Assembly: GCA_913062625.1 (NCBI GenBank)
Contig: CAJXWP010000015.1
Location: 1 to 47,392 of the forward strand
Origin: an uncultured Haliea sp.
GTDB taxonomy: Bacteria > Pseudomonadota > Gammaproteobacteria > Pseudomonadales > Halieaceae
Direction of reading: 5' to 3'
DNA length: 47,392 bases
Below, piece by piece: positions 2,694 to 46,606 of the stretch. How positions within the stretch are numbered: position 1 is the first letter of the stretch; the number at the start of each line of letters is the position of its first letter. A program made the position numbers and the translations under genes. The notes under the pieces are model-generated. The model ran no database searches. It was not told where the DNA came from and saw nothing but the letters and a program-made list of their open reading frames with translations.

Positions 2694-4331
2694 TCAAGAC
2701 TCTTTGGCGGCGGCCGAACGTTGCGCTTTCTCGAATACAAAACCTTGATAGCCCTGGTCTGCCATATCAGAGATCCGCTGGTAGTAGATACTGCCTCCGA
2801 GGTATACGGAGAAGTAACGGGGCTTGCCAGGGACATTCGCGCCTGTCCACCACGAGTCGGTGCGGGGGAATAGCGTGATATTAGCGAGTGCGCTGACCTC
2901 GTTAGCCCAGGCCTCTTCGCTGTCGGTCGTAGGCTCGACGGCACCGAGTTCTTTCTCGTCAAGATGCTCCATGCAGTGGCCGATCCATTTCATCTGGCGC
3001 TCAGCGCCCAGTGGCATATTGTAGAACACGCCGGGCGACCCCGGACCATGAAGCATGAAGAGGTTGGGGAAACCCCCGATCGTAAGTCCCAGATAATTGT
3101 GGTAGCGCTCTTTCCAGCGCTCTTTTAGGCTTACACCTCCCCGTCCTTTGGGGTTAAGGCGCAACATCGAGCCGCTGATGGCGTCATAACCGGTCGCAAG
3201 CACGAGTACGTCGATTGGGTGTTCACCGCTTCGAGTGATGACGCTACTGTTTGTGAAGCGCTCTATGGGATCCTCGCGTAGGTCGACGAGACTTACGTTA
3301 TCTCGATTGAAAGTCTCGAAGTAACCATCCTCTAGGATCGGACGCTTGGTGATGACGAAGTAATCGGGCAACAATTTCTGTGCGGTAACGGGATCGTGCA
3401 CGATTTCTTGGATCTTTGCCCGAACAAAGTCTGCCAGCGTCTGATTGGCTTCCTCGCTGATCGCGATGTCGTTGTAAAGTCCCAAGAAGAACTTAAAGCC
3501 GCCTTGCTGCCACAATCGTTCGTACAGGGCTTTGCGTTGTTCGGCAGTGTCGTCGAGAGCGGCACGCGCCTGATTGTCGACAGGGAAACCGCCGAAATTC
3601 GCCTCCATCTTTTCACGGAGGATGTTCCAGTTCGCCCTCGCGTCCGCCATTTCTTCCGGAGTAATAGAACGGTTCCCGGCTGGAAAGGCATATTGAGGGG
3701 TACGCTGAAGCACTGTCACGTGCGCGGCCTCGCGCGCGATTTGGGGGATCGACTGGACCCCTGAAGAGCCTGTACCGATTACCGCTACCCGCTTGCCCTT
3801 GAAGGAAACAGGTTCATGAGGCCAAAGGCCGGTGTGATAACACTCACCTGCGAAATCTTGAATTCCCGGAATGTCGGGTTTGTTCGCCGTTGACAGCGCC
3901 CCCACCGCACAGATCAGGAATCTGGCGCAGGCGCGTTCGCCAGTCTGGGTCTCTATTGTCCAATGCTGCGCCGTTTCGTCGTAGCGGGCATCTGTTACCC
4001 AGGTGTCGAACTGAATGTCTCGCCGAAGATCAAAACGATCTGCGACATGCTCGAGGTAGGCGAGCACTGCAGACTGGTCAGACTGGGTTTCGGCCCAGTC
4101 CCACTCTTGCATAAGTTCTTCCGAGAAGGTGTAGCAATAAAAGGGACTGCCTGGGCCGTCGACTCGTGCACCCGGATAGCGGTTGTACCACCAGGTGCCT
4201 CCAACGTCGGTGGCACCGTCGTAAACCCGCACCGAAAGACCCATCTCGCGGAGGTGATGTAGGGCGTACATGCCACTCACACCGGCTCCGATAACTACTG
4301 CGTCATAGTGTTCCATCGCTTGGCTTTCCAT
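2694..4331 (-). CDS. flavin-containing Baeyer-Villiger monooxygenase (cyclohexanone monooxygenase type)
   Basis: 545 residues from the ATG at 4331, chosen because GGAAGGGGAT lies just upstream; a GTG eight codons earlier lacks such a site. An N-terminal FAD Rossmann motif GAGVSG is at residues 15-20. The type I BVMO fingerprint FAGECYHTGLWP is near residue 165, followed by the NADPH-binding GTGSSG. A GTWWYNRYPGARVD segment near the FAD domain is typical of cyclohexanone, phenylacetone and steroid monooxygenases. The enzyme would use NADPH and O2 to insert oxygen beside a ketone, giving an ester or lactone. It stands alone between relics. Cyclic, steroid and linear ketones cannot be told apart from sequence. 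Confidence 0.9.
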   Translation of the reverse strand: MESQAMEHYDAVVIGAGVSGMYALHHLREMGLSVRVYDGATDVGGTWWYNRYPGARVDGPGSPFYCYTFSEELMQEWDWAETQSDQSAVLAYLEHVADRFDLRRDIQFDTWVTDARYDETAQHWTIETQTGERACARFLICAVGALSTANKPDIPGIQDFAGECYHTGLWPHEPVSFKGKRVAVIGTGSSGVQSIPQIAREAAHVTVLQRTPQYAFPAGNRSITPEEMADARANWNILREKMEANFGGFPVDNQARAALDDTAEQRKALYERLWQQGGFKFFLGLYNDIAISEEANQTLADFVRAKIQEIVHDPVTAQKLLPDYFVITKRPILEDGYFETFNRDNVSLVDLREDPIERFTNSSVITRSGEHPIDVLVLATGYDAISGSMLRLNPKGRGGVSLKERWKERYHNYLGLTIGGFPNLFMLHGPGSPGVFYNMPLGAERQMKWIGHCMEHLDEKELGAVEPTTDSEEAWANEVSALANITLFPRTDSWWTGANVPGKPRYFSVYLGGSIYYQRISDMADQGYQGFVFEKAQRSAAAKES

Positions 4332-4691
4332 TTTGATCCCCTTCCGCTTTTCCACGCGCGAAGTAAGGACAACCGACGCACGTGTAGTTTGGCAATGTAA
4401 CTTGTTCGAGTATAGTATAAATAAAAGGGCGGTTGTAAGGAGATCCTCCCGTCGATAGATATAGCGGTGTCCTAAGAAAGTAATGCGATTTTCTTGAGGA
4501 TAAGTTCAGGAAAGCTTGCTTCTTAAACCGTGTATCTGACAACGCATATTTTTGTGTAGCTCCGCCCTCGTTTTCGCTTCTTGTCTGCGCTTTATTGCTA
4601 CCGCAGTTGCGCAACGATCCTAGGAACTATGGGAACCGAAGGATACGGGGAAGGTAAGGAGCTAGGGAACTTGCACACTCTTTTGCCCACA
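4332..4691. other. gap upstream of the monooxygenase, no gene seen
   Basis: About 360 bases. The minus-strand part nearest 4331 must carry the monooxygenase promoter. An A/T-rich stretch with TATAGTATAAATAA lies around 4413-4427, but I cannot assign -35 and -10 boxes. No protein family is recognisable in any frame. Confidence 0.4.
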
Positions 4692-13455: not shown

Positions 13456-15072
13456 ATGAACCAAGTTGACTTGAGCAATCCAGAAAATCGTAATTTCCCA
13501 GCGATATTGCATCGACAGGCGTTAGAAAACGGTTCCGGTGAATTCCTTCTTACAGATCAGCGGCGGTTGACCTTTGCAGAAGTCGACACGTTAACCGGGC
13601 AATTGGCGGGCGGCTTACGCAGTATAGGTGTTGAGCCCAATGACCGCGTCGCGTTAATGCTGAGCAACGATGTCGAGATGGTGCTACTAGCACTTGCGAT
13701 AAATAAATTGGGGGCGATCTGGACGCCAATTAACGCTGAATATAAAGGCGACTGGTTATTAGATAATCTGCTGCGTTGCCGCTACAAAGTGCTGGTGGTC
13801 GATGAAGCGCTACAAAATCGTGTGGCAGCCGTGCAAAACAGACTAGGGAATGAAACGATTGTATTGGTGGGAGACATCGACCAATCCACGTTACTGAATC
13901 CTATAGGTTATGACAGTCTCCTGAGTTCACCCGCGATAAAGGTTACAGCCGCCGATATAGACTACGGTGATACGTGCTCAATTTTGTGGACTTCTGGCAC
14001 GACGGGTAAATCAAAAGGTGTGATGCAAAGCTATAATTGCTGGGTTCGCGCGATCGTCTATGGGGCGAGTAAGCAGTACAACTCTCGCGGCGGTGATATT
14101 ATCTACAACACGCTGCCGCTGTATCATTCCGCCGCCTGGATCACCGGCATCTACCGCGCGCTGTTGGAAGGCATACCCTGCGTGATTGAGCAGAAATTTT
14201 CTGTGACAACATTTTGGGATCGCATTAGCCAATTTAAAGCGACACAAACGTTTGTCTTGGGTGCGATGGGTATTTTTTTACTCAACGCACCCGACAAAGC
14301 AGATGACGCAAAGAATACCCTGCGCACAGCCGGTGTCGTGCCGCTTTCCGCTGAGCAAAGGCAACGGTTTGAAGAACGCTTTGGGCTTAGGATTACGCGT
14401 GGCGGCTTAGGTCAAAGTGAGTGCTTGTTAGTCTGCAATCAGTTGGAAGAGCGTGACGATATTCCCTTGCATGCCCTAGGTTTCTCGGTCAGTGACAGTG
14501 AGGTTTGTCTTATGGATGACGAGGGTGTAACCGTGGTTGGTGAAGACGTGGGTGAAATTTGTGTCAAACCTTTAGAGCCTTATGTGGTATTTAACGGATA
14601 TTTTGATGATCCCCAAGCCACGCGTGAGGCTTTTTTTGGCGAATGGTATCGTACCGGTGACCTGGGGAAGCGAGATACGAATACCGGGGCATTATTCTTC
14701 GTTGACCGAAAGAAAGATGCTATTCGATATGCGGGTAGGAACATTTCGACAATGGAGGTCGAGAGCGTCGTCATTCAGCATCCCGACGTGAGAGAAGTTG
14801 CTGCATTCGGCATCGCATTGGCAGAGGTTGAGAGTGAACATGAGCTGAAGCTGAATGTGGTTTTACAAGATGGAGCACAGGTAACACATGAAGATTTAGC
14901 CGCTTTTATTAATGCCAATGCCCCGCATTACTTCGTACCAAGATACATGGAGTTTGTTGACTCGCTGCCTATGACACCAACTAGTAAAGTGCAAAAATTT
15001 AAACTAAGAGAAGCGGGTGTTGGCCCATCTACTTGGGATTTAAAAGCATCTAAATATCAGGTGAAACGTTAG
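13456..15072 (+). CDS. AMP-dependent acyl-CoA ligase
   Basis: 538 residues. The AMP-binding P-loop TSGTTGKSKGV is near residue 180. The adenylate motif region contains GGLGQSE. WYRTGDLGKRD marks the hinge region, and the C-terminal catalytic lysine lies in TSKVQKFKLRE. The protein resembles CaiC/FadD-type ligases that activate carboxylic acids with ATP and CoA. Its stop overlaps the stop of the Ltp2-like gene by 4 bases, tail to tail. Given the igr-like cluster opposite, it may activate a steroid side-chain acid (a role like that of FadD19 or CasG), but this is inference and a fatty or carnitine-like substrate is possible. Confidence 0.9.
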   Translation: MNQVDLSNPENRNFPAILHRQALENGSGEFLLTDQRRLTFAEVDTLTGQLAGGLRSIGVEPNDRVALMLSNDVEMVLLALAINKLGAIWTPINAEYKGDWLLDNLLRCRYKVLVVDEALQNRVAAVQNRLGNETIVLVGDIDQSTLLNPIGYDSLLSSPAIKVTAADIDYGDTCSILWTSGTTGKSKGVMQSYNCWVRAIVYGASKQYNSRGGDIIYNTLPLYHSAAWITGIYRALLEGIPCVIEQKFSVTTFWDRISQFKATQTFVLGAMGIFLLNAPDKADDAKNTLRTAGVVPLSAEQRQRFEERFGLRITRGGLGQSECLLVCNQLEERDDIPLHALGFSVSDSEVCLMDDEGVTVVGEDVGEICVKPLEPYVVFNGYFDDPQATREAFFGEWYRTGDLGKRDTNTGALFFVDRKKDAIRYAGRNISTMEVESVVIQHPDVREVAAFGIALAEVESEHELKLNVVLQDGAQVTHEDLAAFINANAPHYFVPRYMEFVDSLPMTPTSKVQKFKLREAGVGPSTWDLKASKYQVKR

Positions 15073-16250
15073 TTTTCTGCGCCCAACAGCAGGCCACTGG
15101 TAGGAACGCCCGTTCCTGCCGTAACGACAACATGCTTTACATTATCAACTTGATTGACCGATTGGCCACGAATCTGTCGGACGCCTTCAGCGACGCCATT
15201 CATACCATGTATATAAGCCTCGCCGAGTTGACCTCCATGTGTATTAATCGGTAATGTCCCGCTCATAAGATGTTCTCCACCGCGGACAAAATCCTTGGCT
15301 TCGCCGCGTCCACAAAAGCCATACTCTTCCAGTTGCATTAGGACATAAGGGGTAAAGTGGTCATAAATCACCGCAGTCTGAATGTCGTTTGGGCCAACCC
15401 CGGCTTGTCGATACAGCTGTTCGGCGACTAATGCGCATTCTGTTAGGCGCGTCACATCATCGCGGTAATACGAGGTCATCGATTGTTGATCGTCGCAAGA
15501 GCCCTGCGCCGCGCCGCGAATATACGCAGGTTTTTGTCTTAAATCTTTAGCGCGCTCAGCCGATACAACGAGACAAGCCACAGCGCCGTCAGACTCCTGA
15601 CAGCAGTCAAGTAAGCGCAGTGGCTCGCAGATCCAACGGCTATTTTGATGATCCGCCAAGGTAATCGGCTTTTGATAAAACCAGGCGTTTGGGTTGTTCA
15701 CAGCCATTGATCGACCACCTACGGACACCCTGCCTAAATCTAGCGTTGTGGCATCGTATTTATCTAAGTATGCAGAGGCGGCCATCGCCACCCAGGAAGC
15801 AGGTGTTATCAACCCGTGAGGACTGTGCCATCCGAATGCCGCAGTTTCATGTGTGGGGTCAGCGCCACGATCAGCGACACCCGTTCCGAATCGATATTCT
15901 GAGCGCTCGTTCATGGCCCGATAAACCAATACACACTCGCAAATGCCGGTTGAAATAGCCATCGCAGCTTGCAACAGCGGTCCACAGGCAGCCCCGCCAC
16001 CGTAGTCGATGCGAGAAAACATTTTGAGCGCTTTGCCTCCTATCAGGCGGTGCACTTCCATTTCCGGATTATTGTCCATCGTATAGGTGCTAATGCCATC
16101 CACCTCAGCAGGCGCGATACCTGCATCTGCGCATGCAGCCAAGACGGCCTCCACCGCCAAACGCATTTCACTGCGCCCCGATTTTTTTGAAAACTCGGTT
16201 GCACCAATGCCGACAATAGCCGCCTTACCACTAATTGTTCTATCACTCAT
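15069..16250 (-). CDS. ltp2: Ltp2-like thiolase-fold aldolase of steroid side-chain degradation
   Basis: 393 residues with a thiolase fold, of the lipid-transfer-protein/SCP-x thiolase subgroup. The usual Cys nucleophile motif is replaced by GGGAACGPLLQAAMAI, and the C-terminal HPxG motif by THGGQLGEAYIHGMNG. This is typical of Ltp2, which is a retro-aldolase and not a true thiolase. Mycobacterial Ltp2 works in a complex with the DUF35 domain of ChsH2 and splits the 17-hydroxy C22-CoA ester into androstenedione and propionyl-CoA. Here the DUF35 gene is the next one upstream, and the ChsE and ChsH genes precede it. It is the last gene of the six-gene minus-strand set. Confidence 0.87.
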   Translation of the reverse strand: MSDRTISGKAAIVGIGATEFSKKSGRSEMRLAVEAVLAACADAGIAPAEVDGISTYTMDNNPEMEVHRLIGGKALKMFSRIDYGGGAACGPLLQAAMAISTGICECVLVYRAMNERSEYRFGTGVADRGADPTHETAAFGWHSPHGLITPASWVAMAASAYLDKYDATTLDLGRVSVGGRSMAVNNPNAWFYQKPITLADHQNSRWICEPLRLLDCCQESDGAVACLVVSAERAKDLRQKPAYIRGAAQGSCDDQQSMTSYYRDDVTRLTECALVAEQLYRQAGVGPNDIQTAVIYDHFTPYVLMQLEEYGFCGRGEAKDFVRGGEHLMSGTLPINTHGGQLGEAYIHGMNGVAEGVRQIRGQSVNQVDNVKHVVVTAGTGVPTSGLLLGAEN

Positions 16251-16307
16251 ACTATGCCTTCTTTGAAAACTACATCGAAATTACATCGAAACTATCTGTT
16301 AAAATAA

Positions 16308-16325
16308 CGGGTTAAAACCGTTTCT
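16308..16325 (-). promoter_or_regulatory. hairpin between the DUF35 and Ltp2-like genes
   Basis: Minus strand: AAACGG, TTTTAA, CCCGTT, followed by ATTTT. A 5-bp stem with a trailing T-rich run could be a weak attenuator or a stability element in the 123-base gap inside the cluster. A direct repeat TACATCGAAA lies next to it (16273-16294). Confidence 0.3.
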
Positions 16326-16373
16326 ATGGTTCTAATTTGAGGTGATGACCGTCATCTTTCATTGTGGGTCAAT

Positions 16374-16775
16374 TTACGCTGGCTCAAACAATGCCAATGT
16401 GACTTCGTCATCACATCGAGTGATCGTTAGCTTTACTCTTTCCCCAATACGCACCTGTTCCGGTGTGCTGTTAATGAGTCCAGCGATAATTCGAGTGCCT
16501 TCTTCGAGCTGAACTAAGATGATAGGGTGGCCTGCTTCAAACGGGGGTTGAATCGGGTGATGCATTCGCACAAAACTGTGAATCACACCCCGGCCGCATG
16601 ATTCTAGCGCGTCTAACTCAAATGATTGACAATGCTTGCAGCACGCACCCGGAGGATGTTGCAGCTGGTCGCAGTTTTTGCAATGCTGTATTAGCAGTTT
16701 GCCGCCCTTCAGTCCATCCCAAAAAAACTGGGTATCCTTGTTGACTCCAATTCTTGGGCGTAATGCCTGCTCCAT
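16374..16775 (-). CDS. DUF35 OB-fold/zinc-ribbon protein, stand-alone C-terminal half of ChsH2
   Basis: 133 residues. The N-terminal helix region WDGLKGGKLLIQHCKNC leads into a rubredoxin-like zinc ribbon (CKNC and CKHC) and then an OB fold (GVIHSFVRMHHP and IIAGLINSTPEQVRIGERVK). In Actinobacteria, DUF35 is the C-terminal domain of ChsH2 and is needed for Ltp2 aldolase activity, probably binding the acyl-CoA. Here it is a separate gene lying next to the Ltp2-like gene. The matching MaoC half is the gene at 19686-20276. The start ATG has GAGAGGAT upstream. Confidence 0.88.
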   Translation of the reverse strand: MEQALRPRIGVNKDTQFFWDGLKGGKLLIQHCKNCDQLQHPPGACCKHCQSFELDALESCGRGVIHSFVRMHHPIQPPFEAGHPIILVQLEEGTRIIAGLINSTPEQVRIGERVKLTITRCDDEVTLALFEPA

Positions 16776-16873
16776 ACTATCCTCTCTGTCTAATAATTGT
16801 TTGTCGCACTAATACTTGTCCAGCCCTGAGACCTTTTCAGAGATTTCATCGTCTACCGCATTGTATGCTTCTG

Positions 16874-18055
16874 CTAGCGCTTATAGGCCTTCATGTCTAA
16901 GCCGAAGCGGGCGACTAAGTCGCGCATAACTTCTGCCACACCACCGCCAAAGGTATTAATTTGCCAGCTTCGATATTCGTTTTCGAGGTCGCCCTGAAGT
17001 ATTGCGCCGGAACTGCCACGCTGCAACATACCTTCGGCTCCTAGTACATCCATCAATAAACGATAAACTTCGATAACGGCTTCTGAGCTTCCTGCCTTAA
17101 TGGCGGAAGAAAATGCGGGGTCGGGTTCCCCTTGATCATTTTGCCATGCTGCTTGCCAATTCATTACGCGCATAGCCTCAAGGATATTATGCGATTCAGC
17201 GAGTGCGAGTTGCACCCACGGCACCTCAATGGGCCGACAGTCATTAGCCTGCCGCTGCCGCGCCCAGCTCAAAACGCGACTGTACATTGCCAAAGCATTG
17301 ATCCCGCACGCCGCCAAGCCTACGCGTTCATGATTGAGCTGTGACGTGACGAGTTTCCAACCTTGGTTTAATTCGCCAGCAATCATTTTCGCAGGGCAAC
17401 GCATATTGTCATAGTAAGTTACATTGGTTCTAGCGCCGCCTACGGTGTTGATCGGCGAAAACGAATACCCGGGTTGATCCGTGGACACCATAAAAATGGT
17501 GATACCTTTATGCCGCTTATCGGCATCGGGGTCAGTACGTGCTGCCAGCCAAACATAATCTGCTGCTTCAGCACTCGTTGTGTAAATCTTGTTGCCGTTA
17601 ATGAGATAGTCGTCTCCGTGAAGCACGGCGCTAGTGCTTAGCGACGCTAAATCGGTTCCAGAGTTGGGCTCTGTATAACCGATAGAAAAATGTAATTCAC
17701 CACTTGCTATCTGAGGTAAAAAAAACGACTTATGTTCCGCGGCTCCATGGGCTATTAATGCGGGCCCTACAGTGTTAACCGTAACAAAAGGGAAGGGCGC
17801 ACCGGAGATGCGAGTCTCTTCAAAAAATATCAACGATTCTTGTGCGCCGTAACCCTTGCCACCGTACTCTTCTGGCCATCCAACGGTCAGCCATCCATCT
17901 CTGCCAATCTGACGAATAATATCTTTATAGGCGTCCCCAGCCTCTTTATTAAGCACCGCTGCCTTGTTTTTCGGCGTCATCAATTTTGAGAAATAGGCTC
18001 TTATCTCTGCGCGCAGTGCGATTTGCTTTTCACTTTGTTCGAGGAACATAGGCAT
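16874..18055 (-). CDS. acyl-CoA dehydrogenase, ChsE2/FadE29-like subunit
   Basis: 393 residues. The flavin-stacking motif SIGYTEPNSGTDLASL near residue 130 is intact. The usual ERxQFGxPI segment is replaced by a divergent RQRQANDCRPIEVPWVQ. The C-terminus carries NTFGGGVAEVMRDLVA. These are traits of FadE29/ChsE2-type subunits, which form alpha2beta2 dehydrogenases with a partner (ChsE1) and desaturate the steroid C22-CoA side chain. The other dehydrogenase of this cluster is the natural partner. It lies between the DUF35 gene (98-base gap) and the ChsH1-like gene (56-base gap). Confidence 0.88.
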   Translation of the reverse strand: MPMFLEQSEKQIALRAEIRAYFSKLMTPKNKAAVLNKEAGDAYKDIIRQIGRDGWLTVGWPEEYGGKGYGAQESLIFFEETRISGAPFPFVTVNTVGPALIAHGAAEHKSFFLPQIASGELHFSIGYTEPNSGTDLASLSTSAVLHGDDYLINGNKIYTTSAEAADYVWLAARTDPDADKRHKGITIFMVSTDQPGYSFSPINTVGGARTNVTYYDNMRCPAKMIAGELNQGWKLVTSQLNHERVGLAACGINALAMYSRVLSWARQRQANDCRPIEVPWVQLALAESHNILEAMRVMNWQAAWQNDQGEPDPAFSSAIKAGSSEAVIEVYRLLMDVLGAEGMLQRGSSGAILQGDLENEYRSWQINTFGGGVAEVMRDLVARFGLDMKAYKR

Positions 18056-18111
18056 CTAACTCATATAACTAGGGTTGAAGGTAGGTGTTTCATTGTAATT
18101 TGGTTAAACGC

Positions 18112-18522
18112 TCAAACCAGCCGCACGACAACGTCCCCTATGACATGATCACCAATAGTATTTTTGCCTGTGACCTTTAGCTTAACAGACCGATCCGTGT
18201 CATCTTTACTGACAACCTCACCATTCATTACCATTGGGTTGCCCGGGTAGTTGGGTGACCCCAGTCTAATCGATACCGTCTTTAAAACACCAGATGGTCC
18301 GGTCCAATCGGTGACATATCGGCCGACAAAGCCGTTAGTAGTCAATATATTCATGAAAATGTTAGGTGATCCTAACGCTCGTGCAGCGTCCTGATCATGA
18401 TGAACATTCTGATAATCACGCGATGCAATGGCCGCTCCCGTAATCAACTTTGCGGTAATATTAATAGACAGTTCCGGCAGTCTATCGCCCACCTCAATAC
18501 GGCTAAAGTCGACGCTATTCAT
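18112..18522 (-). CDS. chsH1: MaoC-like hydratase subunit, ChsH1-like
   Basis: 136 residues, hot-dog fold. The blocks AIASRDYQNVHHDQDAARAL and FMNILTTNGFVGRYVTDWTG strongly resemble mycobacterial ChsH1 (Rv3541c). DYQNVHHD supplies the hydratase Asp and His. ChsH1 joins the MaoC half of ChsH2 to hydrate the unsaturated C22-CoA. Its ATG overlaps the stop of the upstream dehydrogenase as ATGA, so the two are translationally coupled. The hydratase partner is the separate gene at 19686-20276. Confidence 0.9.
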   Translation of the reverse strand: MNSVDFSRIEVGDRLPELSINITAKLITGAAIASRDYQNVHHDQDAARALGSPNIFMNILTTNGFVGRYVTDWTGPSGVLKTVSIRLGSPNYPGNPMVMNGEVVSKDDTDRSVKLKVTGKNTIGDHVIGDVVVRLV

Positions 18523-19634
18523 ACGGTAATTCCTAGGTCATCATTGTCCGCCAATTTTTGACCAAGCTGAGCTAGCTGTTCTTGCGCACCCCCTAAAGTG
18601 TATTCGAGTTGTTTTGCCCATAAGAAATATCGATGAATTGGATAGTCAATGTCTGCCCCCATTCCACCGTGCAAGTGCTGGGCGGTATGGCCGATTCGGT
18701 GGCCAGCCTCGCAGGCCCACCACTTTGCCGTTCTCGATTCAGTCGTCGCATCTTGGCCAGCACTAATTTTGTAGGCCGCGAGCCAAACACACGCACGCAG
18801 CGAGGAGTAGTCGATATAGCCATTAGCGGCTCGATGACTAACGGCTTGGAAGCTGGCGAGCGGTTTGTTAAATTGATGACGCTCACTGACGTAAAGAGCG
18901 GTGCGCTTAATGGCCTCCTCAACCACACCCAACTGCAGCGCGGCTATCGCGATATAACTGCGCTGAAGAATCCACTCCAGTACATCTGCGCTTGAGGAAG
19001 CGCCAATGATTCGCGTTGGGTCAATCGGCATACAATCCAGCGTTAACTGGTAATGTGGTTCGTTATTGCTGGTGACCTGCAGTTCAAGCGTTACGGCATC
19101 GCGACGCAGGTCAAGTAGGTAAAGGACGTTGCCTGTCCTATCATTCAACGGCAGTAAGATCGTCGCTGCATCTTTAGCAAACGCAACGTCATTGACACAG
19201 CCCGATACTTTGCCGTTGGCAATAGACAGTATGCTGTTAAAACCAGTTCGCGCAGCTTCTGAGGCAGCGATTGAAAAATGTGCCTCCCCAGCAGTGAAAT
19301 TGGGTAGCAACGCCTGTTTTTGCTCTAATGACCCAAATGTGTCAATGGCTTGAGCTACTACGATGCTTTGCCAAAGAGGTAGCTTGGCAAGCACTGTGCC
19401 CTGTGCTTCGAGTAAAGTGCTGGTCTCTAAAAAGGTTAAACCGCTTCCCCCGAATTCTTCGCCGACAATGGCGCCTAAGAGACCTGCGTCAGCCAGCACG
19501 CGCCAAAGGTCGGTGTCGAACCCTTCATTTTTGACCCGATTGACTTTGTGGTAGAGATCATCGACCTGATCGCAAAAAATCTTTTGCGATAGCGCTTCAA
19601 TCGATTGGTGTGCTTCTGTTTTTTCAAAATTCAT
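18519..19634 (-). CDS. acyl-CoA dehydrogenase, ChsE1/FadE28-like subunit
   Basis: 371 residues. It has the C-terminal ALQLGVVEEAIKRTALYVSE followed by RHQFNKPLASFQAVSHR, as in ordinary acyl-CoA dehydrogenases. The flavin-stacking motif in the middle is degenerate (SIAASEAARTGFNSILS in place of EPxAGSD). One member of this pair therefore keeps the flavin motif and the other the QFxKP segment. That fits an obligate ChsE1-ChsE2 heteromer with composite active sites. Its stop overlaps the ChsH1-like start by 4 bases. Confidence 0.87.
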   Translation of the reverse strand: MNFEKTEAHQSIEALSQKIFCDQVDDLYHKVNRVKNEGFDTDLWRVLADAGLLGAIVGEEFGGSGLTFLETSTLLEAQGTVLAKLPLWQSIVVAQAIDTFGSLEQKQALLPNFTAGEAHFSIAASEAARTGFNSILSIANGKVSGCVNDVAFAKDAATILLPLNDRTGNVLYLLDLRRDAVTLELQVTSNNEPHYQLTLDCMPIDPTRIIGASSSADVLEWILQRSYIAIAALQLGVVEEAIKRTALYVSERHQFNKPLASFQAVSHRAANGYIDYSSLRACVWLAAYKISAGQDATTESRTAKWWACEAGHRIGHTAQHLHGGMGADIDYPIHRYFLWAKQLEYTLGGAQEQLAQLGQKLADNDDLGITV

Positions 19635-19685
19635 AAGGGTTCTGCTCTATTATCAGCCAATTTTTTGGGTGCTGCTTGAGTTAAT

Positions 19686-20276
19686 CTAAACGGGTAGTGC
19701 AGGTCTGTAGTTGAGAATGCGGAAACGCATAGTTCCGACAATTTCATCGCGCTGGTTTCTATATTCAGTGAGCTGAGTGACAAAGTAGCCTACGCCTAGC
19801 GCCGTTGTCTTGCGGCCGGAAACAGCTTCAATGGTTGCGTGACCGCTGAGACTGTCGCCCTCAAAAACAGGTTGCATGTACTCCTGTTCGCAGTTCGTTG
19901 CGACCACGGCCAAGTAACCGTGCTCTGCAAAGCAGGCCATGGCGGGATTTTGCTCGCGGGTATCAGACCCTGGAGGGTGCTGTCCGCTAAACCCAGTCAT
20001 AGTCCACGCCTGCATCATCGTCGGCGGAGCAATGACCGTGCCCTGAGGCGCACCGATTTTTGCCGCCACAGCAGGATCGCTATAGGCGGGATTTTGGTCG
20101 CCCATTGCCTCGCACCAATGGCGAATCATTGGGCGATTAACCCTGTCCCACGCTAAAAAAGGGCCAGTTTCAACCCCTACGCACGATTGCAATTTCTCCT
20201 CGAGAGCAGCGATTTCCTGCAGCTCCGCTTCGCCATGAGATTCTATTTGTCTGGTCAACCTATCTTCTCCGAACAT
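19686..20276 (-). CDS. MaoC-like (FAS1-like) hydratase, stand-alone N-terminal half of ChsH2
   Basis: 196 residues from the ATG at 20276, chosen for GGGGCAGG just upstream; an ATG at 20300 in the same frame has no such site. The blocks WDRVNRPMIRHWCEAMGDQN and VIAPPTMMQAWTM are those of the FAS1-like MaoC domain of ChsH2. Mycobacterial ChsH2 is about 310 residues with a C-terminal DUF35; this protein stops after the MaoC domain, and DUF35 is encoded four genes downstream. It probably pairs with the ChsH1-like protein as the enoyl-CoA hydratase. It is the first gene of the cluster. Confidence 0.87.
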   Translation of the reverse strand: MFGEDRLTRQIESHGEAELQEIAALEEKLQSCVGVETGPFLAWDRVNRPMIRHWCEAMGDQNPAYSDPAVAAKIGAPQGTVIAPPTMMQAWTMTGFSGQHPPGSDTREQNPAMACFAEHGYLAVVATNCEQEYMQPVFEGDSLSGHATIEAVSGRKTTALGVGYFVTQLTEYRNQRDEIVGTMRFRILNYRPALPV

Positions 20277-20602
20277 TTTACCTGCCCCATCCGCCATCAT
20301 TTTTAGTCGGCTGTTACGCGATGGTCACTGCTGGAGGCTGCTAAGTTTCTGCACCTCCAATGTATACGCTTGCTAAACTCTGAATTGGAGCTTCAAAAAA
20401 TATATCAGGACAACTGGCGGCCTGCAACAGGGCCGAGCACTTTACACGATCCGCAGCACTCCGCTCAAAGTGTCTGAGTTCGGGGTTAGGGGCACTGCGA
20501 TTACTGTAATAGAAGTACACTTTACCGAACGCATCATTCGCGGTAATGTGACCACGTGTAGCAACCGGCGACACCTACAATCAGCAACAGGAGTTTGTTC
20601 AG
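20277..20602. other. divergent intergenic region between the igr-like cluster and the carbonic anhydrase
   Basis: About 325 bases between divergent genes, so it must hold both promoters. A minus-strand open frame (20341-20574) has no recognisable family. I see no convincing operator palindrome, so any steroid-responsive regulator site remains unlocated. Confidence 0.4.
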
Positions 20603-24774: not shown

Positions 24775-25006
24775 ACGTACTTCGCCTTAGCGAAGAATAG
24801 GGAACGCACGACAGGGTCTTACGACTGATGGCGCTGGGTGTCTTGCGGCTTGTGAGAGGGTAGCGTTGCGCTTTGTATTTTGTGGGTGCTGATCATCAAA
24901 CAACTTCCCGTTCGGTACGAATTATTGATACGGCCGAGTGGGTCAGCGCTCGGTTGTTCAGTATTATATCGGAATCAATTTTATAGCGACTAGAGGACGT
25001 TCAAGA

Positions 25007-26446
25007 ATGCGTATTGCCATAATAGGGGCGGGCCCCGCGGGTATTGCCGCGGGCCGTGAACTACTGAAACAGGGTTTTTCGGACTTTACGATTTTTGATG
25101 TATTGGATGCACCCGGAGGGACTTGGCGTCTGCATTCATACCCCGGGCTGGCCTGTGATGTTTGGGCACACTCTTATTCATTTTCTTACGCGCCTAACCC
25201 GGACTGGAGTGCGAGCTTTGTGGGCTTCGCCGAGATACAGGCTTATCTGGCCAAATGCGCTACGGAGTTTGGCCTCGATCCGCATATGCAGTTCAATACC
25301 CGTATCGTTCGAGCCGAATATAAAAAACCAGGACAATGGCAATTGGAGTCTGAAGCGGGCCCACTTGGACTTTTTGACATTCTCATCAATGCAATGGGCA
25401 ACCAGCACACACCGCTCTATCCCAAGGTGGAAGGCATAGACAGTTTCAAGGGTGATAGTTGGCACGCCACACGCTGGAACCACGACGTCGATCTGAAGGG
25501 TAAGCGTGTGGTAGTGGTGGGTTCCGCTGCCAGTGCAGTGCAGATTGTGCCGGAGGTGGCGAAAGAGGCAGGCCAACTGACCGTGTTGCAGCGCTCCGCT
25601 AATTGGATTATGCCAAGGCGAAAAAAGGAATATAGCGCGGGACAGCGCTGGCGATTCCGGCATGTCCCGACGTTGATAAGGCTGACTCGGTGGATGCAGC
25701 GCATGCTTATGGGGCAGGTAGAATATGCGGTGACGAATGGTCACAAGCGCATGGGCCAGTTTGAAGGCATGGTGGAGAGCTTTATTGACCGAGCTATTGA
25801 TGATCCAGCACTGCGCAAGGTGTTAACGCCAGACACGCGCTACGGTTGCAAACGAGGTCTGGTGTCGGATGATTTTTATCCGGCGTTAAATCGAGACAAT
25901 GTCGAGCTGATAGGGGAGGGGCTGGACCAAATAACGCCCTCGGGCATCGTGACCAGTAGTGGCCGGGAGATTGAGGCCGACGTTATTATCTACTGCACGG
26001 GTTATAGAATACTCGATTATGATCGATTCGATGTGATCGGACTCAATGAAGCGAACCTTGGTGCGGTGATGGGGGACACACCGCGTGCGCACAAGGGTAT
26101 TTCTGTGCCAGATTTCCCCAATTTCTTTTTCGCTGTGGGTCCAAACGGCCTCGTCCTAAACGTTTCTTATTTCATCACTGCTGAGCGCAATGTTGAAACG
26201 ATTGTCGGCTTACTGTCCGATCTGCGCAGCGCGGGGAAACAATCTCTGGATATAAAAAGGGAGGAGTTTCAGAGCTACAATAATACGATGGATGAAAAAT
26301 ACGCTAAATTTAGCTGGGGCTCGTCTGACTGCAACAGCTATTACACGAATGAGTCAGGGCACGCCTCATTTCTTTTTGCCGGAAATTTTAAGGAGTATAA
26401 GCGTTTACATGAGGCGACAGGGCTACAGGAATACGACATAGCCTGA
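25007..26446 (+). CDS. flavin-containing monooxygenase, divergent Baeyer-Villiger type
   Basis: 479 residues from ATG 25007, preceded by AGAGGAC. Begins MRIAIIGAGPAGIAAGRELL (FAD motif at residues 7-12), then GGTWRLHSYPGLACDVWAH, as in BVMOs. The fingerprint is altered: FKGDSWHATRWNHD where FxGxxxHTxxWP is usual. The NADPH motif VVVGSAASAVQ follows. The protein is about 65 residues shorter than the first BVMO in this window. It could be a BVMO or a related N- or S-oxygenase; NADPH and O2 use is likely in either case. Confidence 0.87.
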   Translation: MRIAIIGAGPAGIAAGRELLKQGFSDFTIFDVLDAPGGTWRLHSYPGLACDVWAHSYSFSYAPNPDWSASFVGFAEIQAYLAKCATEFGLDPHMQFNTRIVRAEYKKPGQWQLESEAGPLGLFDILINAMGNQHTPLYPKVEGIDSFKGDSWHATRWNHDVDLKGKRVVVVGSAASAVQIVPEVAKEAGQLTVLQRSANWIMPRRKKEYSAGQRWRFRHVPTLIRLTRWMQRMLMGQVEYAVTNGHKRMGQFEGMVESFIDRAIDDPALRKVLTPDTRYGCKRGLVSDDFYPALNRDNVELIGEGLDQITPSGIVTSSGREIEADVIIYCTGYRILDYDRFDVIGLNEANLGAVMGDTPRAHKGISVPDFPNFFFAVGPNGLVLNVSYFITAERNVETIVGLLSDLRSAGKQSLDIKREEFQSYNNTMDEKYAKFSWGSSDCNSYYTNESGHASFLFAGNFKEYKRLHEATGLQEYDIA

Positions 26447-44890: not shown

Positions 44891-46606
44891 ATGATGAGTG
44901 CAGAGCAGCAGTGGGATTACAGTTTCGATGTGGTAGTGGTCGGATCTGGCAACGGTGGGATGACAGCGGCGCTTTGCAGCTATGAGATGGGCGTGAAGGA
45001 TGTTCTTGTCATAGAGAAATCGGATCTCTTCGGTGGTTCCAGCTCTATTTCCGGTGGTGGCGTGTGGATCCCATGTAACCGATATGCCAATGAAGCCGAT
45101 GCTGGAGATTCATTAGCAAGCGCCAAAACATACCTACGTCAACTGATTACAGAAGAGGAGGTGTCTGAACCGCAGCTAGATGCCTATCTGGAGAACGGTC
45201 CGAAGATGGTGGATTTTCTCCACGAGCGCACGCGTATGCGCTACGTGACTCTGGAACACTATCCGGATTACTACACCAATCTCGACGGCGCGATGGAAGG
45301 TCATCGTTCGATGGAACCGGAAACTTTTAATGCAAATGAGCTCGGTGAAGAGTGGCGACGGCTGCGGCGTACTCATCCGATGATGCATTTGGCGGGCAGG
45401 ATTGGTTTTACTCAGGTAGAGGCTGCGCTGCTGATCGGTCAGCAGCCGGGGTGGTGGAAAACAGCGATCAAGTTGGTCGTCGATTATGTCGTGGATATTC
45501 CTTGGCGTCTGAAGGACAGATACCACCGTCGTCTAGCTACGGGTTGTGCTGGGGTTGCTCGTCTGCGCGCATCAATGCAGGACCGAGACATTCCGCTCTG
45601 GCAAAATACAGCGATGACGAAAGTTGTAGATGTTGACGGCAAAGTGGTCGGTGTTGAAGTACTGCGTGATGGTAAAGCGGTCAGAATTCAGGCGCGCAAG
45701 GCGGTTGTTCTGGCCGCAGGTGGGTTTGAACATAATCAGGAAATGCGTGAAAAATATCTCCCGCAGCCCACCGACCACCGTTGGAGTGCGGGCACAAAAG
45801 ACAATACGGGTGATGCCATTCTCGAAGGGATGCGACTGGGCGCAAAAATGCATCGTCTTGACGAAGCCTGGTGGTGCAACACGATTTCTGTGCCGGGTGA
45901 GGACATTCCTCGCTTGAGCATTATGGAAAAGTCGTACCCGGGCTCCATTATGGTGAATCCGGCTGGGCAGCGATTTAGTAATGAATCACAAAACTACATG
46001 GCGTTTCAGCAGGAAACGTTTGCGAAGCATACCGAGGAAAACCCTCTCAATCCGAGCTGGCAAATATTTGATGCGAACTTCCGTGCCACGTATTTCGTCG
46101 GGCCGCTGTATAACAGCAAATTTCTGCCAGATTGGGCGGTGCCGAAGCGCTATGAAGAAGAAGGCTTTTTTGCTAAAGCGGATTCAATTGCCGAGCTTGC
46201 TCGAAAAATCGATGTGGATGTGGCGGGCTTGGAAGAGACAGTTAATAAGATGAATGAATTCGCCCGCGACGGTGAGGATCTAGATCACCAGCGTGGCGAG
46301 TCAGCCTACGATCGCTATTACGGCGACCCTCGTGTGACGCCCAATCCCTGTTTAGGCCCCATCAATAAGGCGCCTTACTATGCAATGAAGATTGATCCGG
46401 GTGACTTTGGAACCCAAGGTGGCATGATGACTAATGCTCACGCGCAGGTTATTCATGAAAACGGCACTGTGATTGACGGTCTTTATGCTATAGGTAATTG
46501 CAGCGCGCCAACGTTGCCCTGTTATCCTGGGCCGGGTTCGACCCTTGGGCCGGCTATGACGTTTGCTTATCAGGCGGCTAAGTCGATTACCGGTTATCGG
46601 GACTAG
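44891..46606 (+). CDS. kstD: 3-ketosteroid delta1-dehydrogenase-like flavoprotein
   Basis: 571 residues. FAD motif GSGNGG at residues 18-23, then VIEKSDLFGGSSSISGGGVW, as in the KstD/fumarate-reductase flavin family. The C-terminal APYYAMKIDPGDFGTQGGMM (Tyr496/Tyr497) matches the catalytic tyrosine segment of KstD, and YPGPGSTLGPAMTFAY the FAD end. NESQNYMAF corresponds to the active-site NExxxY region. It would remove two hydrogens from C1-C2 of a 3-ketosteroid. A related 3-keto-4-ene dehydrogenase activity is an alternative. No other ring-degradation genes are in the window. Confidence 0.88.
   Translation: MMSAEQQWDYSFDVVVVGSGNGGMTAALCSYEMGVKDVLVIEKSDLFGGSSSISGGGVWIPCNRYANEADAGDSLASAKTYLRQLITEEEVSEPQLDAYLENGPKMVDFLHERTRMRYVTLEHYPDYYTNLDGAMEGHRSMEPETFNANELGEEWRRLRRTHPMMHLAGRIGFTQVEAALLIGQQPGWWKTAIKLVVDYVVDIPWRLKDRYHRRLATGCAGVARLRASMQDRDIPLWQNTAMTKVVDVDGKVVGVEVLRDGKAVRIQARKAVVLAAGGFEHNQEMREKYLPQPTDHRWSAGTKDNTGDAILEGMRLGAKMHRLDEAWWCNTISVPGEDIPRLSIMEKSYPGSIMVNPAGQRFSNESQNYMAFQQETFAKHTEENPLNPSWQIFDANFRATYFVGPLYNSKFLPDWAVPKRYEEEGFFAKADSIAELARKIDVDVAGLEETVNKMNEFARDGEDLDHQRGESAYDRYYGDPRVTPNPCLGPINKAPYYAMKIDPGDFGTQGGMMTNAHAQVIHENGTVIDGLYAIGNCSAPTLPCYPGPGSTLGPAMTFAYQAAKSITGYRD

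Follow-up and report, generated by a model that had tools for sequence, protein, structure and literature searches.

A contig of 47,392 nucleotides from an uncultured Haliea sp. (family Halieaceae; contig CAJXWP010000015.1 of assembly GCA_913062625.1, hereafter the window) carries six minus-strand genes, over positions 15069-20300, in which ChsH2, a protein of steroid side-chain degradation, is encoded as two separate proteins. We propose that this set is quite probably a second, paralogous module for the Ltp2-type removal of propionyl-CoA in a likely steroid-degrading bacterium. In the order of transcription, the genes encode a MaoC protein (H2-MaoC), an acyl-CoA dehydrogenase (ACAD; E1), a small MaoC protein (H1), a second ACAD (E2), a DUF35 protein, and a thiolase-like protein (Ltp2). 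An earlier note, made from the sequence without database searches, had placed all six reading frames correctly, and only the start of the first gene was refined, to 20300, the previous start being an inner ATG in the same frame. Its family assignments were borne out as well, the best PDB matches being to ChsH2-MaoC, ChsE1, ChsH1, ChsE2, ChsH2-DUF35, and Ltp2, respectively, as were its division of ChsH2 into two genes and the position of DUF35 next to the Ltp2-like gene.

The only PDB matches of H2-MaoC were 4w78_A and 4wnb_A (E ~1e-33), and the top matches of H1 were 4w78_B and 4wnb_B (6e-32), hence the two proteins match different chains of the ChsH1-ChsH2 structures, although the two entries assign the names ChsH1 and ChsH2 oppositely. 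When aligned with the 4w78 chains, H1 was found to possess D-x4-H (RDYQNVH), which we take to be the ChsH1 catalytic motif, and H2-MaoC carried D-x4-Y (GDQNPAY) at the same position. The pair thus shows the asymmetry described for ChsH1-ChsH2, where the catalytic Asp/His lie in ChsH1 and a Tyr replaces the His in the MaoC part of ChsH2 (PMC11321319; this and the other papers are cited from excerpts). The E1 protein matched 6wy8_A (Tcur3481, 1.6e-65) and 4x28_D (8e-58) best, and E2 matched 6wy8_B (Tcur3483, 4.5e-116) and 4x28_A (7.6e-114), distinct chains of the same structures, suggesting two different ACAD subunits. We take both structures to be steroid dehydrogenases, 4x28 presumably being ChsE1-ChsE2.

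The DUF35 protein scored above the Pfam cut-offs for zf-ChsH2 and OB_ChsH2_C and matched 6ok1_B, named ChsH2(DUF35) (1.6e-33). Its cysteines 32, 35, 46, and 49 would form the Cys4 zinc site (C-x2-C-x10-C-x2-C) described for ChsH2-DUF35 (PMC12329534). The Ltp2-type protein passed the NF005892 (lipid-transfer protein subfamily) cut-off of 469 with 639.8 bits and matched 6ok1_A (2e-157). In an ungapped alignment (offset 2), its Tyr296, within a YDHF motif, and a second tyrosine, Tyr346, correspond to the catalytic pair Tyr294/Tyr344 of the Thermomonospora curvata C3-side-chain aldolase, which also has YDHF; the C5-side-chain signature of Sal, YDCY with a catalytic Cys, was absent from the window protein, which has His at this place (PMC12329534).

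Each of the two halves, MaoC and DUF35, has a full-length gene of its own, the two lying 2.9 kb apart, and Pfam detected neither domain in the protein that carries the other, so that the DUF35 of a typical ChsH2 is not on the same chain here. The MaoC protein ends in the linker, with its stop directly past FRILNYRPALPV, and the DUF35 protein starts at the domain start; the linker is therefore the sole missing part. The DUF35 gene has its own start, with a Shine-Dalgarno-like GAGAGGA upstream. The dN/dS ratios against one split relative (L046) were 0.146 for MaoC, 0.024 for DUF35, and 0.016 for Ltp2, and ranged from 0.016 to 0.146 over the 12 of 18 comparisons with three relatives that gave a defined value; synonymous sites were close to saturation. 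These ratios indicate that the six-gene set is under purifying selection. An assembly slip or frameshift artefact was rejected on this basis and because the same split was found in seven named loci.

Table 1 Features of the six-gene set and related genes in the 47,392-nucleotide window.
Feature	Position	Strand	Remarks
ChsH2-MaoC half, stand-alone, 204 aa	19686..20300	-	inner ATG at 20276 in same frame
ChsE1-type ACAD subunit	18519..19634	-	PDB 6wy8_A, 4x28_D
ChsH1-type catalytic small MaoC hydratase subunit	18112..18522	-	PDB 4w78_B, 4wnb_B; D-x4-H
ChsE2-type ACAD subunit	16874..18055	-	PDB 6wy8_B, 4x28_A
ChsH2-DUF35 half, stand-alone, 133 aa	16374..16775	-	Pfam zf-ChsH2 and OB_ChsH2_C; PDB 6ok1_B
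Ltp2-type steroid retro-aldolase (predicted), thiolase-like	15069..16250	-	NF005892; PDB 6ok1_A
Acyl-CoA ligase, convergent with ltp2	13456..15072	+	Pfam AMP-binding; 4-base overlap with ltp2 end
3-ketosteroid delta-1-dehydrogenase-like (KstD-like) flavoprotein	44891..46606	+	25 kb from the set

The intergenic gaps, in transcription order, are 51, -4, 56, 98, and 123 bases, the negative value being a stop/start overlap of the E1 and H1 genes, and these sizes are compatible with a single transcript. A pattern scan gave five promoter-like sites, where 7.2 were expected, and eight terminator-like sites against 5.6 expected; the promoter-like site before DUF35 is hence meaningless. Two genes for FMO-like flavin monooxygenases also lie in the window (2694-4355 and 24938-26446), their best NCBIfam model being pentalenolactone D synthase, far below its cut-off.

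The genome to which the window belongs (3.07 Mb in 117 contigs, 96.67% complete) encodes on another contig, C58, a fused ChsH2 of 318 aa within a complete set (E1, TetR, E2, H2, H1, and Ltp2), adjoined by a thiolase that reached 607.9 bits against the cut-off of 515 for the steroid 3-ketoacyl-CoA thiolase. Because of this set, we regard the one in the window as a second, paralogous module. On contig C59 of the same genome, a gene above the PF19298 (KshA_C) cut-off adjoins a KstD-like gene, and the steroid degraders of PMC5790920 include an isolate of the Halieaceae; the gene content thus points to a likely steroid degrader. Two further arrangements were observed in this genome. Contig C2 (L005:14058-15640) carries a third pair of DUF35 and thiolase-like proteins, encoded by separate overlapping genes and sharing 35% and 33% identity with the window pair. 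Contig C34 (L192:2637-3656), like L055, L174, L176, and L183, encodes a protein of ~340-354 aa whose first half resembles H2-MaoC and whose second half resembles H1, that is, both hydratase subunits on one chain without a DUF35.

For the pathway, we infer a steroid substrate, a role for the ligase, and the complexes named below. An acyl-CoA ligase, perhaps the product of the convergent gene, would activate a steroid whose side chain is a three-carbon (C22) acid, and ChsE1-ChsE2 would desaturate C17-C20. The heterodimer of ChsH1 and the stand-alone ChsH2-MaoC would then add water at C17, with H1 supplying the catalytic D/H and H2-MaoC the wide pocket, and a heterotetramer of Ltp2 and the stand-alone DUF35 would cleave the tertiary alcohol to the 17-ketone and propionyl-CoA. 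The intermediate would move between the enzymes by diffusion or weak contact, not via a tethered complex. The order from ACAD pair to MaoC pair to Ltp2-DUF35 was assigned by mutants of Comamonas testosteroni TA441 (PMC12502768; reviewed in PMC8399759), and the C3-chain CoA ligases CasI and StdA2 activate C22 acids (PMC8399759). By analogy, the convergent ligase may activate a C22 acid, a role we can only suggest since its score for CasI was far below the cut-off. In that case, sterols might be handled by the fused C58 set, and free C22 acids, such as those derived from bile acids, by the split set.

Several results weigh against this reading. The ligase scored 175 bits where the CasI cut-off is 900, and the KstD-like gene of the window, with NF009478 as its best NCBIfam model, scored 553.6 bits, below the curated cut-off of 789. 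The KstD-like gene on C59 was likewise below the cut-off of its best model, 3-ketosteroid delta-1-dehydrogenase, and the best NCBIfam model of its KshA_C neighbor was 4beta-methylsterol monooxygenase, far below the cut-off (73.9 of 600 bits). Ltp2-like proteins at 52-59% identity adjoin CaiB/BaiF-type CoA transferases, one of them near aromatic meta-cleavage genes, so that identity alone leaves the substrate unfixed. Moreover, the C58 fused ChsH2 could lend a part to the window enzymes, and CtSal-DUF35 without its MaoC part loses activity quickly on dilution (PMC12329534), which gives the tether some value. Two plasmid loci were also noted. On Sphingopyxis granuli plasmid pRW412a (L163), two IS6100 copies enclose genes for DUF35, an Ltp2-like protein, a crotonase-type hydratase, and a CoA transferase, close to aromatic meta-cleavage genes, and pVa1 of the fish-associated Vibrio alfacsensis (L160) carries a fused ChsH2-type gene with ACAD, MaoC, Ltp2, and electron-transfer flavoprotein genes.

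A search with the MaoC half gave 453 relatives, from which 80 loci were retained, the nearest named ones being from Halioglobus and Haliea metagenome-assembled genomes (MAGs). The split ChsH2 is common to seven named loci (L044-L050). In five of them (L045, L046, L048, L049, and L050), the order MaoC-E1-H1-E2-DUF35-Ltp2 is complete and the ligase follows it; in L044 the contig end falls inside DUF35, and L051 and L052 end at contig edges. The ligase adjoins Ltp2 in all of L045-L050 and, at 46-47% identity, in L060 and L172. The seventh locus, L047 (contig C59 of genome G006), is split but has neither E1 nor E2, and no window-type E1/E2 was found elsewhere in G006, only distant copies at 56% and 42% identity; its set (L171/L047) is reduced to H2-MaoC, H1, DUF35, and Ltp2, in one assembly only. 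Conversely, L053, whose coordinates match contig C4 of G038, holds H2-MaoC, E1, H1, and E2, with no DUF35 or Ltp2 within its 16.5 kb stretch and no Ltp2 above 48% identity in G038. By coordinates, L046 and G012, L047 and G006, and L053 and G038 are the same contigs, hence the named loci and the six window-type genomes described below are not independent counts.

Separate genes were also found in Actinobacteria. MaoC and DUF35 are adjoining separate genes in two MAGs (L069 and L070), and a Rhodococcus rhodochrous plasmid (L159) carries MaoC, MaoC, DUF35, and Ltp2-like genes in a row. The L159 MaoC proteins share 30% identity with those of the window, and in the DUF35 tree it falls, on long branches, with the distant C2 pair, so that L159 may represent a different line. 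In eleven further loci (L056, L057, L058, L063, L065, L066, L068, L178, L179, L180, and L184, some of which may be the same contigs), a MaoC-only ChsH2 and ChsH1 pair was seen behind a KshA-like Rieske oxygenase (71-100% identity to that of L065), and the stretches of 3.5-16.5 kb around these pairs showed no ACAD, DUF35, or Ltp2. A new use of the hydratase pair is possible there.

At the survey threshold (E<=1e-25), 55 of the 140 genomes of the family sample gave 92 matches, and in 26 cases the stop-to-stop frame was no longer than 260 aa. One more, long frame, that of G035, contains a 178-aa MaoC-only gene, and some long frames join two MaoC parts instead of MaoC and DUF35 (G090). Six genomes carry the window-type split: G000 (the window's own), G003 (counted without its DUF35 gene having been viewed), G005, G006, G010 (with Ltp2 on a separate contig), and G012. 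All six hold a second copy in a frame of 322-328 aa, within which a DUF35 was seen in G000 and G006. Eight other genomes (G026, G033, G069, G070, G071, G072, G076, and G160) have a single, short ChsH2 copy at this threshold, and in the five of the eight that were viewed (G026, G033, G070, G072, and G160), H1-H2MaoC and DUF35-Ltp2 form divergent pairs. In the class sample, 4 of 369 genomes gave a match, G000 included, the other three being fused (L188-L190). The IpdE2 model NF050027 gave a signal in 56 of 57 genomes, with none above its cut-off.

Trees were built for the MaoC half (68 rows, including 41 of the 80 retained loci), Ltp2 (50 rows), and DUF35 (48 rows); L072, an odd long frame, was left out of the MaoC and DUF35 trees and L044, with its partial DUF35, out of the latter, and Streptomyces was reduced to three to six rows. 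Split forms are scattered among fused ones, the starred branches requiring at least three (MaoC), four (Ltp2), and three (DUF35) state changes, and stand-alone DUF35 occupies at least three separate clades. A single clade of all 13 stand-alone ChsH2-type DUF35 rows was rejected by the approximately unbiased test (p-AU 0.00025), as was one clade of both split lineages of the window's family (p-AU 0.0022). Most simply, these trees would reflect three separate fissions of ChsH2. The rejection of the single clade, taken alone, still allows a single early split with later re-fusions, and fission in place of fusion is the parsimonious but not the proven direction. The window DUF35 and Ltp2 both stand beside the fused set of G042 (100/95 and 90/83), whose order is H2-E1-H1-Ltp2; from this order, the MaoC half would have kept its place while E2 and DUF35 came between H1 and Ltp2. 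The ancestral ChsH2 would most likely have been fused, its DUF35 leaving the MaoC gene and settling between E2 and Ltp2.

The opposite direction, in which the split form is ancestral and fusion arose repeatedly, seems very improbable to us, even though the trees determine state changes and not their direction and distant pairs, the one on C2 among them, have a separate DUF35 gene adjoining a thiolase. The main split clades sit among fused ones in all three trees, and the two rejected clades likewise speak against it. The window set might instead be a chimera, with its H2-MaoC/E1/H1/E2 and DUF35/Ltp2 blocks from different parents. This is an unlikely origin, although L053 and G038 offer just such a first block without the second, and the MaoC tree disfavored a clade of the window group with G042 (p-AU 0.023; 0.0825, not rejected, for H1). 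Indeed, once L053 and L054 were added, this clade was no longer disfavored (0.164 for MaoC and 0.532 for H1), so a chimeric origin is not established, and loss of DUF35/Ltp2 in L053 would explain the data equally.

As for function, the same chemistry could act on a non-steroid branched acid or another polycyclic compound, such as a terpenoid, to release propionyl- or acetyl-CoA, with the fused C58 set being the steroid one. The genes flanking the six-gene set (a peroxidase, a metallo-hydrolase-like gene, and a carbonic anhydrase) are not steroid genes, the steroid thiolase adjoins the C58 set, and relatives of Ltp2 occur on plasmids in different settings. We nevertheless judge this decidedly unlikely, as the window Ltp2 retains the second Tyr along with the C3-type YDHF and groups with the T. 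curvata steroid aldolase in one clade (100/99), with the C58 Ltp2 outside; steroid sets also typically have an ACAD of two subunits and a MaoC partner that is inactive (PMC11321319, PMC12502768). There is a somewhat better, though still minor, chance that the halves remain one complex and coupling is kept, either because DUF35 binds the MaoC dimer non-covalently or because the C58 fused ChsH2 bridges both. The long-frame copy in every window-type genome and the activity loss of CtSal on dilution would suit this, and coupling helps to pull the unfavorable hydration (PMC8399759, PMC11321319). The eight genomes of the other lineage with a single short copy argue against it, as does the view that long flexible linkers connect CtShy and CtSal, an arrangement judged not to fit direct channeling (PMC12329534).

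More broadly, and only tentatively, at somewhat less than even chances, we suggest that ChsH2 split at least three times, with DUF35 ending beside the aldolase in both lineages of the window's family, and that some lineages reduced their sets further, to a MaoC-only pair behind a KshA-like oxygenase, to hydratase and aldolase in G006, or to dehydrogenase and hydratase in G038. Nature would then be able to do without the hydratase-aldolase tether, the three enzymes would be modules open to exchange, and the MaoC pair would have taken on a different reaction.

The observation of the earlier note is thus confirmed and its interpretation partly supported. It held that each half had been placed by its working partner; this is right for DUF35, beside Ltp2, but not for the MaoC half, which E1 parts from ChsH1. 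That idea fits best in the other lineage with its divergent pairs, while in the window lineage DUF35 alone moved. Nor is the fused ChsH2 confined to Actinobacteria: TA441 (PMC12502768) and most relatives have it too, and in the actinobacterial L069, L070, and Rhodococcus L159 the halves are separate genes. A fused ChsH2 elsewhere in the genome, which the note held would tell against it if it served these enzymes, exists on C58 but with its own E1, E2, H1, and Ltp2. Finally, the implication that the fusion is dispensable is not new, as the MaoC and DUF35 halves of TA441 ORF40, expressed apart, retained both hydratase and aldolase activities (PMC12502768).

Such independently working halves, and a stand-alone DUF35 as aldolase partner (ChsH4, PMC10398937), were hence already known. 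In the literature searched, with partial coverage, we did not meet in print a natural, recurrent split of ChsH2 in C3-chain sets or genomes with split copies only; the words steroid, sterol, cholesterol, and bile are absent from PMC10100682. Channeling of the intermediate in ChsH1-ChsH2-Ltp2 and its relatives is called an open question in PMC12329534, and the repeated splitting seen in nature, in some genomes with no fused copy detected alongside, offers untethered enzymes for comparison with tethered ones of the same family. The small stand-alone DUF35 and MaoC subunits may suit steroid biocatalysis, and genome surveys should not require a fused ChsH2 as a pathway marker.

Among known systems, ORF40-44 of TA441 share the five enzyme families and proposed reactions of the window set, except that ORF40 is one MaoC-DUF35 protein where the window has two genes; there, efficient removal is said to need proper formation of each complex (PMC12502768). 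The igr operon of Mycobacterium tuberculosis (ChsE1-ChsE2, ChsH1-ChsH2, and Ltp2) is homologous, as seen from 4w78/4wnb and 4x28, but its ChsH2 is fused (PMC12502768). The role of DUF35 itself is disputed, being indispensable for the TA441 aldolase (PMC12502768) and apparently unimportant for activity according to PMC11321319. In the Shy-Sal system of proteobacterial bile-acid degraders, DUF35 links a MaoC hydratase to a thiolase-fold aldolase, but this system has C5 chains, a homodimeric MaoC, YDCY, and a Cys3His zinc site, where the window has YDHF and Cys4 (PMC11321319, PMC12329534). Like the window set, Mycolicibacterium neoaurum has a stand-alone DUF35 protein (ChsH4, 138 aa) in an operon with a steroid aldolase, Atf1, the two being key genes together; unlike it, Atf1-ChsH4 acts at the earlier C5 side-chain retro-aldol step, and the excerpt describes no matching stand-alone MaoC half (PMC10398937). 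The closest solved aldolase with its DUF35 is T. curvata Ltp2-ChsH2(DUF35) (6ok1), a structure that contains only the DUF35 domain of ChsH2 and no MaoC half: what was separated there for the structure is separated in the window by the genome itself.

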